Assembly: GCF_002906155.1 (NCBI RefSeq)
Contig: NZ_MUJK01000011.1
Coordinates: forward strand, 124,001-188,000
DNA: 64,000 nucleotides
Source of the DNA: Pseudomonas laurylsulfativorans
GTDB taxonomy: Bacteria > Pseudomonadota > Gammaproteobacteria > Pseudomonadales > Pseudomonadaceae
Direction of reading: 5' to 3'
Positions 13,264-62,024 of this stretch are shown in pieces. The translations under genes and the position numbers were made by a program. How positions within the stretch are numbered: position 1 is the stretch's first letter; the number at the start of each line of letters is the position of its first letter. The notes under the pieces are model-generated. The model did no database searches. It saw nothing but the letters and a program-made list of their open reading frames with translations, and was not told the origin of the DNA.

Positions 13264-14613
13264 TCAGTGAGTGCTGCCAGCGAACCAGCCATCGTTACGG
13301 CGCAGGCGCCAGGCGATCACGCCGAGGGTCAGACTGCGCAGCAGCATGAACAACAAGAAGGTTATCCACAGGCCGTGGTTGCCCCAGCCTTGCAGTACCC
13401 AGCCGAAAGGCAGCACCAGCGCCACGGTCAGCAGCATGCCATTGCGCATTTCCCTGGCCCGGGTGGCGCCGATGAACAGGCCGTCGAGCAGGTAACTCCA
13501 GACGGCGATCAGCGGCAAGACGGCGAGGTAGGGAAGGTAGATGAACGCGGTGTCGCGCACACTTTGAATGTCGGTTTGCATCTCGATGAACAAGTGCCCG
13601 GCCAACAGAAACAGCGCGGCGAAACCCAGGCTCGCGAGCAACGACCAGCCGCCAGCCACCACCAATGAACGGCGCAGGGCATCACGATCGCGGGCGCCGA
13701 GGGCATGCCCGCACAAGGCTTCGACGGCGTGGGCCAGGCCATCCAGCGCGTGGGCGGTCAGCAGCAGGCCATTGAGCAAAAGCGCATTGGCCGCGACTGT
13801 GGCGTCGCCCAGCCGCGTGCCTTGCACCGTGATCAGGAAAAACACCGATTGCAGCGCCAGGCTGCGGATGAAGATGTCGCGGTTGACCGCCAGCAATGGC
13901 CGCCAACTCTGCCACAGTGCCAATGCCGCCCAGGCGATATGCCCGGGATAGGCGCGCAGCGCTTTGCGGGTCATCAGCAAGCCGATCAGAGCCCCCGTCC
14001 ATTCGGCAATCACCGAGGCCCGGGCCGCACCGACCACGCCCCATTCCAGTCCGAGGACGAACCACAGGTTCAGGGCAATGTTGACCAGGTTGGTGCTCAG
14101 CAAGATCGCCAGCGGCGCCCGGGCGTTCTGGGTGCCGAGGAACCAGCCGACCAAGGCATAACTGGCCAGCGCTGCGGGGAGTCCGAACAGACGGGTGTGG
14201 AAAAACTCGCGGGTCAGTAGATCGAGCTCCGGCGACGGTTGCATGAAGTGCAACGCCACCCCACTCAACGGCACGCCCACCGCGCCCAAGACCAGGGCCA
14301 GGCCGATGGCGAGCAACAGGCCTTGCAACAGAATCTGCCGTAAGGCCGCGCCATCGCCACGCCCCGCCGCCTGGGCGGCGAACCCGGTGGAACCCATGCG
14401 CAGAAAACCCATGGCCCAGGCGAGGAAGGTATACAGGCTGGCCCCGACCGCGACGGCGCCGAGTTGATGGGCATGGGGCAGGTGGCCGATGACGGTGCTG
14501 TCGACCAGTGCCACCAGCGGTACGGAAATGTTCGAGAGAATCATCGGCGCGGCGAGCGCCCAGACCCGGCGATGGGTAGGGCGGTCGCGCCAGTCGGCGG
14601 TCAGGTTGGACAT
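13264..14613 (-). CDS. dinF: MATE-family efflux transporter (DinF-like)
   Basis: Polytopic inner-membrane exporter of 449 residues with about 12 membrane helices in two homologous halves, driven by Na+ or H+. The N-terminal ALAAPMILSNISVPLVALVDSTVIGHL (split over residues 15-41) is typical of the DinF branch, which exports cationic or oxidative-stress-related compounds; the substrate here is unknown. The start at 14613 follows AAGGAG by a good spacing. No LexA box was recognised upstream. Confidence 0.9.
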   Translation of the reverse strand: MSNLTADWRDRPTHRRVWALAAPMILSNISVPLVALVDSTVIGHLPHAHQLGAVAVGASLYTFLAWAMGFLRMGSTGFAAQAAGRGDGAALRQILLQGLLLAIGLALVLGAVGVPLSGVALHFMQPSPELDLLTREFFHTRLFGLPAALASYALVGWFLGTQNARAPLAILLSTNLVNIALNLWFVLGLEWGVVGAARASVIAEWTGALIGLLMTRKALRAYPGHIAWAALALWQSWRPLLAVNRDIFIRSLALQSVFFLITVQGTRLGDATVAANALLLNGLLLTAHALDGLAHAVEALCGHALGARDRDALRRSLVVAGGWSLLASLGFAALFLLAGHLFIEMQTDIQSVRDTAFIYLPYLAVLPLIAVWSYLLDGLFIGATRAREMRNGMLLTVALVLPFGWVLQGWGNHGLWITFLLFMLLRSLTLGVIAWRLRRNDGWFAGSTH

Positions 14614-56533: not shown

Positions 56534-57639
56534 CACAGCGCTCCTGCGTGTACGGCGGTGGCTTGTGCGCGGCGAGTCCAGCGCAGGTTCAGGCGGGGGC
56601 GATAGAGAATCAGCACATCACTGGCGAGCAGGAAAAACAGCATCATGCCCTGGAACAATTGGGTGATGGCTTGCGGCAGGTTCAGGCTCATTTGTGCGCT
56701 CTCGCCGCCGATGTACAGCAGCGCCATCAACAGGCTGGAAAACAAAATGCCGACGGGATTGAGGCGGCCGAGAAACGCCACGGTGATCGCCGCATAGCCG
56801 TAGCCCGGCGAGACCTGCGGTACCAACTGGCCGATAGGACCGGTGACCTCACATACGCCGGCCAGCCCAGCCAGACCACCGCTGATCAACAGCGCGAGCC
56901 AGATCAGGCGCTTCTCGCGAAAGCCGACAAAACTGGCTGCGCGCTTGTCCAGCCCGAGCACTTTGATCTGGAACCCGACAAAGCTTTTCTGCAACAACAC
57001 CCATACCGCCACCAAGGCGAGCAGGGCGAAATACACCCCGGCGTGAACCCGACCATCTTCCATCAACAGCGGCAAGCGGCTGGCGTCACTGAACATCGCT
57101 GACTCGGGGAAGTTGAACCCGGCGGGATCCTTCAAGGGGCCGTGAACGCAGAACAGCAACAGGTTCAGTGCGATGTAGTTGAGCATGATGCTGGTCAGGA
57201 TTTCATTGGCGTTGAAACGTGTGCGCAACCACGCCGTCAGGCCGGCCCACGCGGCGCCGGCCAGGGTGCCGGTGAGCAGGATCGCCACCAGCGCCCAGCG
57301 GCTTTGCAGACCGATGATGTTCACCGCCAGCGCACTGCCGGCCAACGCGCCGAGCAGCAGTTGACCTTCGGCACCGATGTTCCAGATACGTGCCTGATAG
57401 GCAACGGCCAGGCCCAGGGCGCAGAGCAGGATCGGCAGGGCTTTGACCAATAATTCGGAGACGCCATACAGATCGCTGACCGGAGCGATCAGCAAGGTGT
57501 GCAAGGTCAGCAGCGGGTCGTGCCCGAGCGCGATAAACAACAGTGATCCACAGCCCAGGGTCAGTGCCGCCGCCAGCAACGGCGAGCACCACAGCATCAG
57601 GCGTGATTGCTGGCCACGGGGTTCAAGGGAAAGCAGCAT
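56533..57639 (-). CDS. BMP-type ABC transporter permease (first)
   Basis: A 368-residue permease (NupP/YufP-like, PA0137 counterpart) with about 10 helices; the segment IWNIGAEGQLLLGALAGS is the conserved coupling loop. The start at 57639 (MLLSLEP) follows GGAG. It lies 11 bases after the ATPase gene ends, and overlaps the next permease, forming a single transport operon with the ATPase. Confidence 0.88.
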   Translation of the reverse strand: MLLSLEPRGQQSRLMLWCSPLLAAALTLGCGSLLFIALGHDPLLTLHTLLIAPVSDLYGVSELLVKALPILLCALGLAVAYQARIWNIGAEGQLLLGALAGSALAVNIIGLQSRWALVAILLTGTLAGAAWAGLTAWLRTRFNANEILTSIMLNYIALNLLLFCVHGPLKDPAGFNFPESAMFSDASRLPLLMEDGRVHAGVYFALLALVAVWVLLQKSFVGFQIKVLGLDKRAASFVGFREKRLIWLALLISGGLAGLAGVCEVTGPIGQLVPQVSPGYGYAAITVAFLGRLNPVGILFSSLLMALLYIGGESAQMSLNLPQAITQLFQGMMLFFLLASDVLILYRPRLNLRWTRRAQATAVHAGAL

Positions 57640-57650
57640 GTGACACTCCG

Positions 57651-59216
57651 TTAGCGCGTGGCGGATGCGAGTGATTGAGGGGTATCGAACTGGCCGGCCA
57701 TCCAGCCGCCGACGTCGCTCAGGCGTGTATCGACGGTGGCGCAGAGGGCGGACAGTCGACCGCTGCACAGGGCGCCAAGGCGGTCGCTGATCTGGAACAG
57801 TTCGTCGAGGTCTTCGGAGATCACCAGGATCGCCGCGCCGGCATCGCGCAAGGCAACCAAGGCATGATGAATCGTGGCGGCGGCGCCGACATCCACACCC
57901 CAGGTTGGATGGGCGGCCACCAGCAGTTTCGGTTGCTGGAGGATTTCCCGGCCAAGGATGAATTTCTGCAAGTTGCCGCCGGACAGGCTGCGGGCCTGGG
58001 TTTGGCTATTGGGCGTTTTCACACCGAATCGACGGATGATCTCCTCGGCCAGTGCGGTGACTTTGCTGCGCTGGACCAGGCCATGGCTCAGCAGCCCTTG
58101 CTGGAAAGCGGTCAATAGCGCGTTGTCTGCCAGGCTCAATTCCGGCACCGCGCCATGGCCCAGACGTTCGGCGGGGACGAACGCCAGGCCGAGTTGGCGA
58201 CGTGCATCGGGACGCAAGTGGGCGACGGGCTCCTTGCCAAAACGGATCGTCGCGCCGACGTTGCGTGGCAGTGGTTCTTCGCCGCTGAGCAAGGCCAGCA
58301 ACTCGTCCTGGCCGTTACCGGCGACACCGGCGATGCCGACAATTTCACCGCTACGCACTTCAAGGTCGATGTCCTTGAGCGAGCAGCCGAACGGGTCGGG
58401 GTTGTGCCAGGACAATCCACGGACATCAAGGAATGCCTCACCGCCGGTGACCTTCGGATAGTCAGCGATCAACTCCGCCGCCTCACCGACCATCAAACGT
58501 GCCAGTTGCTGATCCGAACACTCGGCCGGTACGCAATGCCCGGCCACCTGTCCGCCGCGCAGCACCGTCGCGCTATGGCACAACGCGCGGACTTCCCCGA
58601 GCTTGTGGCTGATGAACAGAATGCTGCAGCCCTCGGCGGCGAGCCGGCGCAGGGTGACGAACAAGTCGTCGGCCTCTTGCGGCGTCAGTACCGAAGTCGG
58701 TTCATCGAGAATCAGCAGGCGGATGTCCTGCATCAGGCAGCGAATGATCTCCACCCGTTGCCGCTCACCAATCGACAGGCTGTGGACAAGTCGCTCCGGT
58801 TCCAGCGCCATGCCGTAGCGCCGAGACACTTCGCGAATCTTCGGCTCCAACTGTTTGGGGGTGCCTGCCGCCGCGCCCATGGCCAGGGCGATGTTCTGCG
58901 CCACGCTCAGGGTTTCGAACAGCGAGAAGTGCTGGAACACCATGCCGATTCCCAAACTCCGGGCCTGGGCCGGGTTACGCAGGCTCACCCGTTGACCTTG
59001 CCAGATCACCTCGCCCGAATCGGCGTGGGTGACGCCGTAGATGATCTTCATCAGCGTGCTTTTGCCCGCGCCGTTTTCGCCGAGCAGGGCATGGATCTCG
59101 CCAGGGGCAATGGTCAGGTCGATGGCATCGTTGGCCAGGCAACCGGGGTAGCGTTTTGTGATTCTGCGAAGTTGCAGGCGCGGAGTCGGATCTGGGACTG
59201 GAGCGGGATTGGGCAT
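57651..59216 (-). CDS. BMP-type ABC transporter ATP-binding protein
   Basis: A 521-residue double ATPase (NupO/YufO-like, PA0136 counterpart). The first half has Walker A GENGAGKST, signature LSIGERQRVEI and Walker B LLILDEPTS. The second half is degenerate at Walker A (GVAGNGQDELL) but keeps LSGGNLQKF and VAAHPTWGVD; this is normal for the sugar/nucleoside class. It drives import of nucleobases or nucleosides together with the two permeases and the BMP protein at 49754-50836. Confidence 0.92.
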   Translation of the reverse strand: MPNPAPVPDPTPRLQLRRITKRYPGCLANDAIDLTIAPGEIHALLGENGAGKSTLMKIIYGVTHADSGEVIWQGQRVSLRNPAQARSLGIGMVFQHFSLFETLSVAQNIALAMGAAAGTPKQLEPKIREVSRRYGMALEPERLVHSLSIGERQRVEIIRCLMQDIRLLILDEPTSVLTPQEADDLFVTLRRLAAEGCSILFISHKLGEVRALCHSATVLRGGQVAGHCVPAECSDQQLARLMVGEAAELIADYPKVTGGEAFLDVRGLSWHNPDPFGCSLKDIDLEVRSGEIVGIAGVAGNGQDELLALLSGEEPLPRNVGATIRFGKEPVAHLRPDARRQLGLAFVPAERLGHGAVPELSLADNALLTAFQQGLLSHGLVQRSKVTALAEEIIRRFGVKTPNSQTQARSLSGGNLQKFILGREILQQPKLLVAAHPTWGVDVGAAATIHHALVALRDAGAAILVISEDLDELFQISDRLGALCSGRLSALCATVDTRLSDVGGWMAGQFDTPQSLASATR

Positions 59217-59763
59217 GACAGGCTCGGTGCTGTTGGACTTGTGCCTGTGGATAAAGCAATTTTCTGGCCACTAGGTCAGGAAAATGTCGAGGCCCTGTGA
59301 GCCGAGGCGTTGAATGCGCAGCTTTCAAACGTGTCGCACGAAGCCGGGCACCACATGGGGGCAGTGCCGCGAATCAAGCCCTGATTTTGCCCGTGCGGCT
59401 TTGGTCAAAAAATGAGCAATCGACCACGAGCCATGTCGTACGTGGCGCGGCGAAGGCCATGAACGGGTTATCCACAGATTGCTCCACAGTATTTGTGTGC
59501 AAGCTCAAGGCACGGGCATAAGCACTGAGTGGCTTTCTTCTAAAGGTGCTAAACCGTTGTAACTGTTTGTTTTTATTTGAATTTGATGTGCTTGATGGCG
59601 GATTGGATGAAAATTGAGCAAAGTTCGCAAAGCCGCATGACAGAAGGGTTACAGCGGTATGTGCTCAGGTTATCCACAGCCGGGTGCACAGCAGATGTGG
59701 GCAAATATGGAATATGTGGAAAAGCGGTGTGCCCCAAAAGATCGCAGCTTGTATTGAAGCCTT
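59217..59763. other. Intergenic stretch with a DnaA-box cluster
   Basis: No credible gene lies in these 547 bases. Three exact DnaA boxes are present: TTATCCACA at 59468-59476 and 59670-59678, and the inverted TGTGGATAA at 59246-59254. A further consensus-fitting copy, TGTGGAAAA (inverted TTTTCCACA), lies at 59715-59723, and a weaker TGTGGGCAA at 59696-59704. An A/T-rich run (about 59548-59585, GTTTGTTTTTATTTGAATTT) lies between them. The arrangement resembles an origin or a DnaA-titration site. Confidence 0.6.
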
Positions 59764-60345
59764 TCAGCGCTGCAGCAAAATGCGCCCGCGACTCAAATCG
59801 GCCAGTTGTGACTGCAAGGCGGCGATCTGCGCATCGCCCACGGCCAACTGCAGCTCGACACCATTGGCGGTGAAGCTTTCGTCCACAACCAATCCACCGG
59901 CCTCCGCGACCCGCAGCTTGACCAGGGCCAACTCGGCAAACCCGCAAGCGCAACTCAGCGGTACCCGGCTGATCAACTCGATCTTTGGTGCCGCTTGCAG
60001 GCACTTGTTCGCTCCCCCGCCATAGGCACGGGCGAGGCCACCAGTGCCCAGTTGGATGCCGCCATACCAGCGAACCACCAGCACCGCGACCTGATCGCAG
60101 GCCTGCGCCTCGATCGCCGCCAGAATCGGCCGGCCGGCTGTACCACCGGGCTCGCCATCATCAGTGCTGCGGTACTGATCGCCGAGTTTCCACGCCCAGC
60201 AGTTGTGCGAGGCATTCAGGTCACTGTGCTGTTCGATAAACGCCTGGGCCTCGGCCGGGCTGGCAATCGGCGCTGCGAAGGTGATGAAGCGGCTTTTGCG
60301 AATCTCTTCGCGGTATTCGCAAAAACCGCTGAGGGTAAATGGCAT
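59764..60345 (-). CDS. yigZ: YigZ/IMPACT-family protein (UPF0029)
   Basis: A 193-residue protein of the IMPACT/YigZ family: the segment STDDGEPGGTAGRPIL (about 60-75) and VRWYGGIQLGTGGLARAYG are the family signatures, followed by a C-terminal ferredoxin-like DUF1949 domain. The family is related to eukaryotic IMPACT, which affects translation control; the bacterial role is unclear. It lies next to a TetR regulator on the same strand. Confidence 0.9.
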   Translation of the reverse strand: MPFTLSGFCEYREEIRKSRFITFAAPIASPAEAQAFIEQHSDLNASHNCWAWKLGDQYRSTDDGEPGGTAGRPILAAIEAQACDQVAVLVVRWYGGIQLGTGGLARAYGGGANKCLQAAPKIELISRVPLSCACGFAELALVKLRVAEAGGLVVDESFTANGVELQLAVGDAQIAALQSQLADLSRGRILLQR

Positions 60346-60363
60346 ACGTACCTGAATGGCGAC

Positions 60364-61014
60364 TTAGATGGCAGGTTTCAGGCCGCAGCCCTTGAGAATG
60401 ATACGGATCAGGTTGTCCCCGGCGTCTTCCATGTCTTGCTTGGTCAACCGGGTGCGCCCGGTGACACGGCAGATCTGCGTGGCGAAGTCGGCATAGTGCT
60501 GGGTGCTGCCCCACAACAGGAAGATCAGGTGTACGGGATCGACCGGGTCCATTTTACCGGCGTCGATCCAGGACTGGAACACGCCCGCCCGGCCCTGGAA
60601 CCAGGCACGGTAATCCTGATTGAAGTACTCGGTCAGGCACTCGCCACCGCTGATGACTTCCATGGCGAAAATCCGCGAGGCTTGTGGTTGGCGTCGGGAG
60701 AACTCCATTTTTGCGCGGATGTAGCGGGTCAAGGCTTCGCTCGGATCGTCCTCGGCGGTGAGGGTGTTGAAGGTGCTGTCCCACAGCTCGATGATGTTAC
60801 TCAGCACCGCCACGTACAAACCGAGCTTGTTGGTGAAGTAGTAATGCAGGTTTGCCTTGGGCAGTCCGGCGTTCTGGGCGATGGTGTTCATGCTCGTGCC
60901 TTTGTACCCGTGACGGGCAAACTCGTCTTCGGCGGCTTTGATGATGGTCTCTTCGTTTTTCTGACGAATGCGGCTGACGGGTTTGCCGCCATGGGCTGGG
61001 ACTTCAAAGGTCAT
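60364..61014 (-). CDS. TetR-family regulator, RutR-like
   Basis: A 216-residue regulator with N-terminal TetR HTH (ARHGYKGTSMNTIAQNAGLP, then KANLHYYFTNK) and a C-terminal ligand domain that shows the RutR pattern (QASRIFAMEVISGG, IDAGKMDPVDPVHLIF, STQHYADFA). E. coli RutR binds uracil; a pyrimidine or related ligand is a reasonable guess. The start at 61014 follows GGAAG. It sits between a purine transporter and the beta-alanine genes, which are products of pyrimidine breakdown. Confidence 0.87.
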   Translation of the reverse strand: MTFEVPAHGGKPVSRIRQKNEETIIKAAEDEFARHGYKGTSMNTIAQNAGLPKANLHYYFTNKLGLYVAVLSNIIELWDSTFNTLTAEDDPSEALTRYIRAKMEFSRRQPQASRIFAMEVISGGECLTEYFNQDYRAWFQGRAGVFQSWIDAGKMDPVDPVHLIFLLWGSTQHYADFATQICRVTGRTRLTKQDMEDAGDNLIRIILKGCGLKPAI

Positions 61015-61103
61015 AAACACTTCCGAACTGATGGGGGGGACGGCCAGTGCGTTGATAACGTACCCACCGGCTTCAGACAAGTCCTTATGTGGCGCAATGA
61101 TCA

Positions 61104-62024
61104 CTAACGCGTCGCGGCCAGGCTCTCGAGAAAACTCTCCAGCACCAGATGCGGGCGACGTCCCTTGCGGGTGACCGACGCCAGGCTCAGGTCATAGAAG
61201 CGCGTTTTCGCTTTCAACGCTCGCAACCGGCCTTGCTGCACCCAAAGACTCGCGTAGTGATCCGGCAGGTAACCGATGTAGCGCCCGGTCAGGATCAGGA
61301 AGGCCATGCCTTCGCGGTCGGAGGCGCTGGCGGTGCAATTGAGCGCCTGGTAGTGGGCCTGGATCTCTGCCGGCAAACGGAAGGTGGGCGCGATGGCGTC
61401 CTGGCTGTTCAGGCGTTCGTCGTCCAGTTGTTTATCGTCGACATAAAACAGCGGGTGGCCGACTGCGCAGTACAGCAGCGACCGCTCGCTATACAGCGGT
61501 TGATACTCCAGCCCCGACAGTGCGCTGGCCTGCGGCACCACGCCGACGTGCAGGCGGCCGTCGAGCACGCCTTGTTCGACTTCATTGGGCGCGATCATGC
61601 GGATCTGGATCTGCACATCCGGGCCGCGCTCTTTCAATTGCGCGAGGGCATGGGTGATGCGCATGTGGGGCAGGGTGACCAGGTTGTCCGTCAAACCAAT
61701 GATCAATTCGCCGCGCAAGTGCTGGTGCAGGCCGTTGACCTCGGTCCGAAAGCTTTCCAGCGCACTGAGCAGTTGCAACGCCGATTGATAGACCTCGCGG
61801 CCTTCTTCGGTCAGGGAAAAACCGGCGCGTCCACGTTGGCAAAGGCGCAGGCCGAGGCGTTGCTCCAGATCGCTCATCTGCTGGCTGATCGCCGAGCGGC
61901 CGATGCCCAGCACCGTTTCCGCTGCGGAGAAGCCGCCGCATTCCACCACGCTACGGAAAATCCGCAGCAGGCGAATATCAAAGTCGCTGACCTGGGCCAG
62001 CGGATCGGGACGGCGAGTGCTCAT
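61104..62024 (-). CDS. bauR: LysR-family regulator BauR
   Basis: A 306-residue LysR protein (HTH: DIRLLRIFRSVVECGGFSAA, then GIGRSAISQQMSDLEQRLG) divergent from bauA, as PA0133 (BauR) is in P. aeruginosa, where it activates the beta-alanine catabolic genes. The effector domain follows from about residue 95. It should respond to beta-alanine or a derivative. Gene symbol rests on synteny and divergence rather than on residue-level proof. Confidence 0.86.
   Translation of the reverse strand: MSTRRPDPLAQVSDFDIRLLRIFRSVVECGGFSAAETVLGIGRSAISQQMSDLEQRLGLRLCQRGRAGFSLTEEGREVYQSALQLLSALESFRTEVNGLHQHLRGELIIGLTDNLVTLPHMRITHALAQLKERGPDVQIQIRMIAPNEVEQGVLDGRLHVGVVPQASALSGLEYQPLYSERSLLYCAVGHPLFYVDDKQLDDERLNSQDAIAPTFRLPAEIQAHYQALNCTASASDREGMAFLILTGRYIGYLPDHYASLWVQQGRLRALKAKTRFYDLSLASVTRKGRRPHLVLESFLESLAATR

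Follow-up and report, generated by a model that had tools for sequence, protein, structure and literature searches.

The intergenic gap considered here (positions 59217-59763, 547 bp) belongs to genome G000, of 6.69 Mb in 30 contigs, and was read within a window of 64 kb, that is the whole stretch of DNA that was analysed, corresponding to contig C2:124001-188000. It extends from the start of a gene encoding an ABC-transporter ATPase (57651..59216, Pfam ABC_tran) to the stop of yigZ (59764..60345), whose product is of the IMPACT family (Pfam UPF0029 and DUF1949), both genes being on the minus strand. A first-pass annotation had reported a cluster of DnaA boxes at this place, and the cluster is real: three exact copies of TTATCCACA, at 59246-59254 (minus strand), 59468-59476 and 59670-59678 (both plus strand), and one TTTTCCACA, a TTWTNCACA-type box at 59715-59723 (minus strand), lie inside the gap, which also has an A/T-rich stretch where the GC content is lowest (35-37% at 59520-59609). 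In the window as a whole, TTATCCACA is found 4 times against 0.12 expected, a number reached in 0 of 100 shuffles, and TTWTNCACA 9 times against 2.31 expected. An isolated single exact TTATCCACA is located at 13362-13370 of the window.

The annotation had judged the cluster against a chance expectation based on even base composition, which is the wrong yardstick, since TTATCCACA occurs 140 times genome-wide against 19 for the reversed word. Among the 100 matches listed there are at least three other groups of three or more boxes within 300 bp, at C26:279877-279943, 391951-392166 and 409762-410034, the last of which adjoins dnaA. Because the word is over-represented throughout the genome and such groups exist, box density alone is a weak argument and does not make the gap unique. 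The annotation's own reservation, that the genome could carry many equal clusters, is therefore partly justified for raw box density, but not for the three-box module described below.

Two modules of three boxes

Each of the two direct copies of TTATCCACA belongs to a module of three boxes. Core module A (59468..59502, plus strand, 35 bp) comprises box III, the exact TTATCCACA at 59468-59476, box II, TGCTCCACA, at 59480-59488 in the same direction (offset +12), and box I, TTGCACACA, at 59494-59502, which is inverted (offset +26). Core module B (59670..59704, plus strand) repeats the offsets 0, +12 and +26, with box III, TTATCCACA, at 59670-59678, box II, GGGTGCACA, at 59682-59690 in the same direction (6 of 9 consensus positions, as read off the sequence), and the inverted box I, TTGCCCACA, at 59696-59704. 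The two boxes III will be called box A and box B. In the window, boxes I and II of both modules are weak, agreeing with only 6-7 of the 9 consensus positions. One weaker copy had been mentioned by the annotation beside the exact ones; the weaker copies that matter are these four, at 59480 (+), 59494 (-), 59682 (+) and 59696 (-). The exact box at 59246-59254, in the leader of the ABC-ATPase gene, is accessory and stands without a three-box module.

DARS are non-coding DNA sequences on which ADP-DnaA assembles, drops its ADP and can take up ATP. The pattern of offsets 0, +12 and +26 (inverted) was drawn up from Pseudomonas alone, prior to inspecting E. coli, and in MG1655 the boxes of DARS1 (bioD-uvrB gap; 2108+, 2122- and 2134- of L103) and of DARS2 (rppH-mutH gap; 3136+, 3150- and 3162- of L104) are found at the same offsets, 0, +12 and +26 from box III. 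That DARS1 and DARS2 have the same core spacing, with box I opposed to II and III, is also stated in PMC5742627, and both modules of the gap consist of three boxes with this orientation and this spacing. On a 27-point core score DARS1 reaches 25, DARS2 24, module A 23 and module B 22, followed within the 64-kb window by places that score 20 and 18. When 306 geometries were ranked over 72 contexts, (+12,+26) came top with 6 boxes against 3 for the next, a result to which we give little weight because the pattern itself had brought in part of the 72 contexts.

Between the two modules an IHF-like site, TAACTGTTTGTTT (59560..59572, plus strand), agrees with TAAnnnnTTGATW at 8 of 9 positions; it is inside the A/T-rich stretch, at +92 from the first base of box A. 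A Fis-like site, GGTCAAAAAATGAGC (59403..59417), agrees with GnnYAnnnnnTRnnC at all positions and precedes box A by 65 bp, and a second one, GGATGAAAATTGAGC (59605..59619), with 5 of 6 positions, lies 65 bp before box B. All three are consensus matches only, and the consensuses used are loose ones. Across the 48 related loci that carry both boxes (see below), an IHF-like match of at least 8/9 is found at the +92 offset in 28, against 1 of 48 at the next best offset, and a full Fis-like match at -65 of box A in 20, against at most 2 of 48 at the other offsets from -100 to -1; for box B the full match at -65 is found in 12 of 48. These Fis-like counts take full matches only: a 5-of-6 threshold, which gives 47/48 at -65, is not specific because the count is again 47/48 at an offset of -9 from box B, where the match runs over the box. 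Genes for a Fis homologue and for IHF alpha are present in the genome, as are those for DnaA and for a 243-aa DnaA paralogue that would correspond to Hda.

With DARS2 the site has in common the three-box core offsets, an intergenic position and a steady relative distance from the origin (PMC4245941, PMC4585315), and its IHF-like and Fis-like sites begin 57 and 102 bp from core A where the consensus sites of DARS2 begin 58 and 110 bp from the core. It differs in possessing two cores instead of one, in its neighbours, in its distance to dnaA (about 12% of the genome, against about 21% for DARS2 according to the map positions in PMC5742627), in the perfect box at III, whereas the strongest box of DARS2 is at II, and in the flank that carries the IHF-like site (that of box I at core A, that of box III in E. 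coli DARS2). DARS1, a 101-bp sequence that works in vitro without further factors (PMC5742627), has the same core offsets as the yigZ modules, but the box strengths are distributed differently.

Conservation at yigZ and occurrence elsewhere

A BLAST search with positions 59150-59900 gave a match in 123 of 149 congeneric genomes and none in 26, part of the 123 being matches to the end of yigZ only; many of the weaker matches still keep short stretches of similarity around the boxes at 59468 and 59670. Plasmid records contained no match to the gap. We then compared 50 loci oriented by yigZ, namely the 30 best matches and 20 hand-chosen weaker ones, and the counts obtained from them are not independent because the loci are related and partly selected. 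Two direct copies of TTATCCACA are present in 48 of the 50 (L057 and L085 do not have the pair), spaced by 202 bp in 40 loci, 203 in 3, 200 in 2, and 201, 204 and 187 in one each. With a slightly relaxed core pattern, module A was recovered in 46 of the 48, module B in 41 and both in 39. Mean pairwise identity over these loci is 0.914 for core A and 0.895 for core B, slightly above codon positions 1+2 of yigZ (0.883; fourfold sites 0.53), against 0.27-0.66 for the spacers; the A/T-rich part (59575-59604, identity 0.42) is poorly conserved.

The boxes that the annotation had grouped together are thus of unequal standing, the pair 59468/59670 having a counterpart in 48/50 loci, 59246 in 22/50 and 59715 in 2/50; the TTTTCCACA at 59715-59723 is, judging from this count, probably incidental. 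The ABC-ATPase gene is the neighbour on the other side in 31 of the 50 loci, and it is absent, or only 33% alike, in the other 19, of which 18 keep the pair (core A in 18, core B in 14). The distance from box B to the end of yigZ varies from 39 to 192 bp. Since the pair is kept in loci lacking the ABC gene and its distance to yigZ is variable, the element is a unit of its own. Absence of the boxes from relatives, which the annotation had named as evidence against a function, was mostly not observed, but there is a group of congeners without the element at yigZ. Fifteen further yigZ loci were fetched for having no exact core listed there or a match extending little beyond yigZ; in 14 of them (L299-L312) no TTWTNCACA was found within 700 bp beyond yigZ, nor any core-like module (best score 15-17 of 27), and the fifteenth (L313) has one core. 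The element is therefore not universal at yigZ in the genus. Several genomes without it have an exact core at another place (for instance G139, at gbcA), and from this distribution the element may have been lost, gained or moved within the genus.

Considering the core at any place, an exact match is found in 164 of 199 congeneric genomes and is lacking in 35, with 0 for the reversed control. About 110 of the 164 have at least two cores on one strand, including a few pairs away from yigZ (e.g. G186). Altering the spacing from +12 to +10, the only alteration tried, gave 0/199 genomes. In the Pseudomonadaceae the core pattern occurs in 28 of 119 genomes and 5 of 19 genera, Pseudomonas included; in the order Pseudomonadales, with one base freed, it occurs in 3 of 145 genomes, all three belonging to the Pseudomonadaceae. 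Named genome contigs have the core in at least 120 stretches, where adjacent cores are 202 bp apart in 47 of 60 pairs; the 80 titles among the named contig matches listed are Pseudomonas or Stutzerimonas, except one bin titled Paucimonas, which carries the 202-bp pair.

Near-matches to the core (at most 3 mismatches) in G000 are found at C2:55765, C28:138874, C29:102353 and C29:140316-140875. The last consists of four degenerate core modules in tandem, at spacings of 182, 182 and 161 bp, adjoining a GbcA-like gene (named by eye), and relatives have an exact core beside the same gene (L107, L108, L111, L112, L122, L129, L131, L136-L138 and L140). On sequence grounds this gbcA-side cluster is a candidate second DARS-like site. 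In 6 genomes the distance between the exact gbcA-side core and dnaA is 6-9% of the genome, and in G015, the sole one of the six with both the gbcA and the yigZ site, the two are on opposite sides of dnaA. A one-mismatch core at C2:55572-55799 (L097) is near livF-like and SDR genes; exact cores occur in the vicinity of both genes in L142, from a genome of another genus, and of livF in L117, from a congener. A further one-mismatch core (C28:138874-138908, L098) is between HDAC-like and YhiN-like genes, both named by eye. In the genus g9 (L146-L152) a core pair 113 bp apart occurs at one locus, and a second locus has a single core beside NtrC-like and TrmL-like genes (names by eye).

Concerning the E. 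coli-type core pattern, it was found in 64 of 229 sampled gammaproteobacterial genomes, with 0 in the control and 0 in the G000 genome. From the 80 places listed we fetched 20, from 12 genomes chosen for several matches or long contigs. The possibility that the core geometry is a mere feature of oriC was discarded, as 20 of 20 places had no match within 5 kb to reading frames of the origin region (22 frames from C26:395-425k including dnaA, E <= 1e-15, a check run without positive control). These places showing no origin neighbours, the three-box geometry looks like a wider, non-oriC device, of which, to judge from the sequences, the Pseudomonas form with its strong box III looks like a variant. 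In 5 of the 20 stretches (L279, L283, L285, L294 and L296), from different families, the E. coli-type core is close to the start of priA; for L294 the priA neighbourhood is based on tblastn only.

The position of the site along the chromosome was evaluated in 21 placed genomes, of which 18 remain after setting aside G017 and G139, whose yigZ gap has no element, and G020, which has no exact core. In 17 of the 18, dnaA and the yigZ site are separated by 0.111-0.141 of the genome, the site being to one or the other side of the origin, and the outlier is G029 (0.365); in G020 the distance is 0.170. Where present, then, the site is intergenic, outside oriC and at a steady relative distance from the origin, as PMC4585315 describes for datA and DARS when E. 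coli strains are compared, although synteny alone could explain part of this steadiness. The dnaA gene itself is on another contig (C26:410117) and has its own box cluster. In the 120 kb around it (C26:370001-490000, L063-L068) TTATCCACA occurs 34 times against 0 for the reversed word, and this halo centred on dnaA resembles the one reported for E. coli in PMC12371093. The strong box word TTATCCACA, which a table in PMC4285127 gives for the Pseudomonas origin region, is common to that region and to the yigZ site; the origin region differs in that no core module of either type was found in C26:370-490k.

Candidate functions of the site

The annotation had offered three functions for the cluster. 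One of them, a DARS-like site, has passed a specific test, that of geometry; a datA-like or titrating site keeps some probability, while an ectopic origin found no support. From the features described above, our preferred reading of the gap, with a probability of about 0.55, is a DARS-like element that has two cores and reactivates DnaA. ADP-DnaA would assemble on the element, lose its ADP and take up ATP, providing more active DnaA before the next initiation. In each core, DnaA molecules on the strong box III and on the weaker direct box II would face a DnaA molecule on the inverted weak box I, head to head, and in E. coli it is such a head-to-head box arrangement that releases ADP. Bending by IHF between the cores, together with Fis 65 bp ahead of each, may bring the cores together and gate the reaction, in the way IHF and Fis gate it at E. 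coli DARS2. Observed are the boxes, their geometry and conservation, the constant spacing between the cores and, where the site exists, its steady distance along the chromosome; we infer the binding of DnaA, IHF and Fis, and equally the sign of the effect (reactivation as opposed to inactivation or titration).

The main doubt on the DARS reading is that the pair formed by boxes I and II, which is essential in E. coli, is weak. The perfect box is here at position III, and box III is described as stimulating in E. coli. The head-to-head arrangement of I and II is characteristic of DARS and essential according to PMC10380432. Geometry, moreover, is insufficient to make a DARS, because similarly arranged pairs of boxes in E. 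coli, 52 in number, exceed the two chromosomal DARS identified from them (PMC5835720).

The alternative that survives best, and that we still consider unlikely, is a datA-like site. ATP-DnaA would then assemble on the two direct strong boxes around a bent IHF site, and these, shortly after their replication, would stimulate ATP hydrolysis or retain DnaA. In both the yigZ site and datA two direct strong boxes flank an IHF or IHF-like site: boxes A and B, 202 bp apart, have the 8/9 IHF-like match between them, and the direct boxes of MG1655 datA (L105, 2745+ and 2907+), 162 bp apart, have a 9/9 site at 2810. Both lie at about 10-12% of the genome from the origin, the 11-14% measured to dnaA being close to the distance of datA (94.7 vs 84.6 min, PMC5742627). 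The IHF match at yigZ is imperfect, however, and both strong boxes come with a conserved inverted box at +26, while in datA the essential boxes all point the same way (PMC5742627); the best place in the MG1655 datA stretch reaches a core score of 21 at most, against 23 and 22 for the yigZ modules. DARS is favoured over datA because what is conserved is the head-to-head core, a signature absent from datA. Inactivation or titration nevertheless retains a share of the probability, because the macro-layout is common to datA and boxes I and II are weak.

Passive titration, with the gap being one of many high-affinity groups of boxes whose uptake of DnaA scales with the number of chromosome copies, appears improbable. 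The excess of TTATCCACA both genome-wide (140 vs 19) and around dnaA (34 vs 0 in 120 kb) agrees with it, an origin-proximal excess of boxes in E. coli has been proposed to serve titration (PMC12371093), and the loss of the site in some congeners would fit a dispensable sink. A sink, however, requires neither a fixed spacing of 202 bp nor fixed weak boxes at +12 and +26, and neither type of core is found in C26:370-490k, the region around dnaA that contains the 34 boxes.

A promoter of a neighbouring gene is unlikely, and we give very little credit to the gap being a transcriptional regulatory region, controlled by DnaA or otherwise, of the ABC operon or of yigZ. The gap is indeed the leader of the ABC gene, and the box at 59246 is placed about 30 bp before its start, with a counterpart in 22 of 50 loci, all 22 having the ABC gene next door; in these the distance to box A is 223 bp in 16 loci, 222 in 4, and 221 and 239 in one each. 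Of the 19 loci that do not have the ABC gene next door, on the contrary, 18 carry the pair, with other genes there in those inspected, and the pair is downstream of yigZ at a varying distance; a simple scan of 59150-59800 gave no sigma-70-type promoter or terminator.

Hardly credible, finally, is a non-coding RNA or an ectopic replication origin, to which the conserved non-coding block of about 300 bp, or the A/T-rich part with its DnaA boxes, could point. An Rfam search found no match in the gap and one in 57000-62000, outside the gap and below the gathering score, and in a consensus fold of 12 loci at least one change on both sides was seen in 6 of 38 predicted pairs, with an unfavourable covariation term (+0.85) and long pairs that join mutually inverted boxes; hence neither an Rfam family nor a covarying structure was recognized. 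As for an origin, which is unlikely, the dnaA gene and the box cluster belonging to it are on a different contig, the site and dnaA are 11% of the genome or more apart in the placed genomes, and the gap has neither a dnaA neighbourhood nor a conserved unwinding element, the identity of its A/T-rich part being 0.42.

A possible DnaA switch in pseudomonads

In the literature searched, as far as the excerpts go, no paper apparently describes DARS or datA in Pseudomonas, so that the pairing of two cores, the strengths of the boxes and the occurrence in Pseudomonas seem to be new. An earlier mention is nonetheless possible because DARS-like sequences are stated, in PMC10380432 citing another paper, to be present in many proteobacterial species. 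A broader picture, which we put forward tentatively and regard as rather doubtful, is that the two cores of the yigZ element, looped over IHF, could combine a DARS-type reactivation with a datA-type looping, and that the Pseudomonadaceae could have their own dispersed non-coding switches of the DnaA cycle, with the geometry of E. coli at unrelated loci, the gbcA and other sites, with one or several cores, standing in where the yigZ site has been lost.

To our knowledge, the loci that recharge or discharge DnaA are understood in detail in E. coli, and descriptions exist for its close relatives. With a 300-bp candidate whose core has the E. coli geometry and whose locus is unrelated, DARS-type control becomes directly testable in pseudomonads, and the presence or absence of the element among congeners offers a natural experiment. 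The occurrence of the E. coli-type core in 64 of 229 gammaproteobacteria hints at a wider use of the three-box core, and pseudomonads may time the copying of their chromosome by an E. coli-like DnaA switch.
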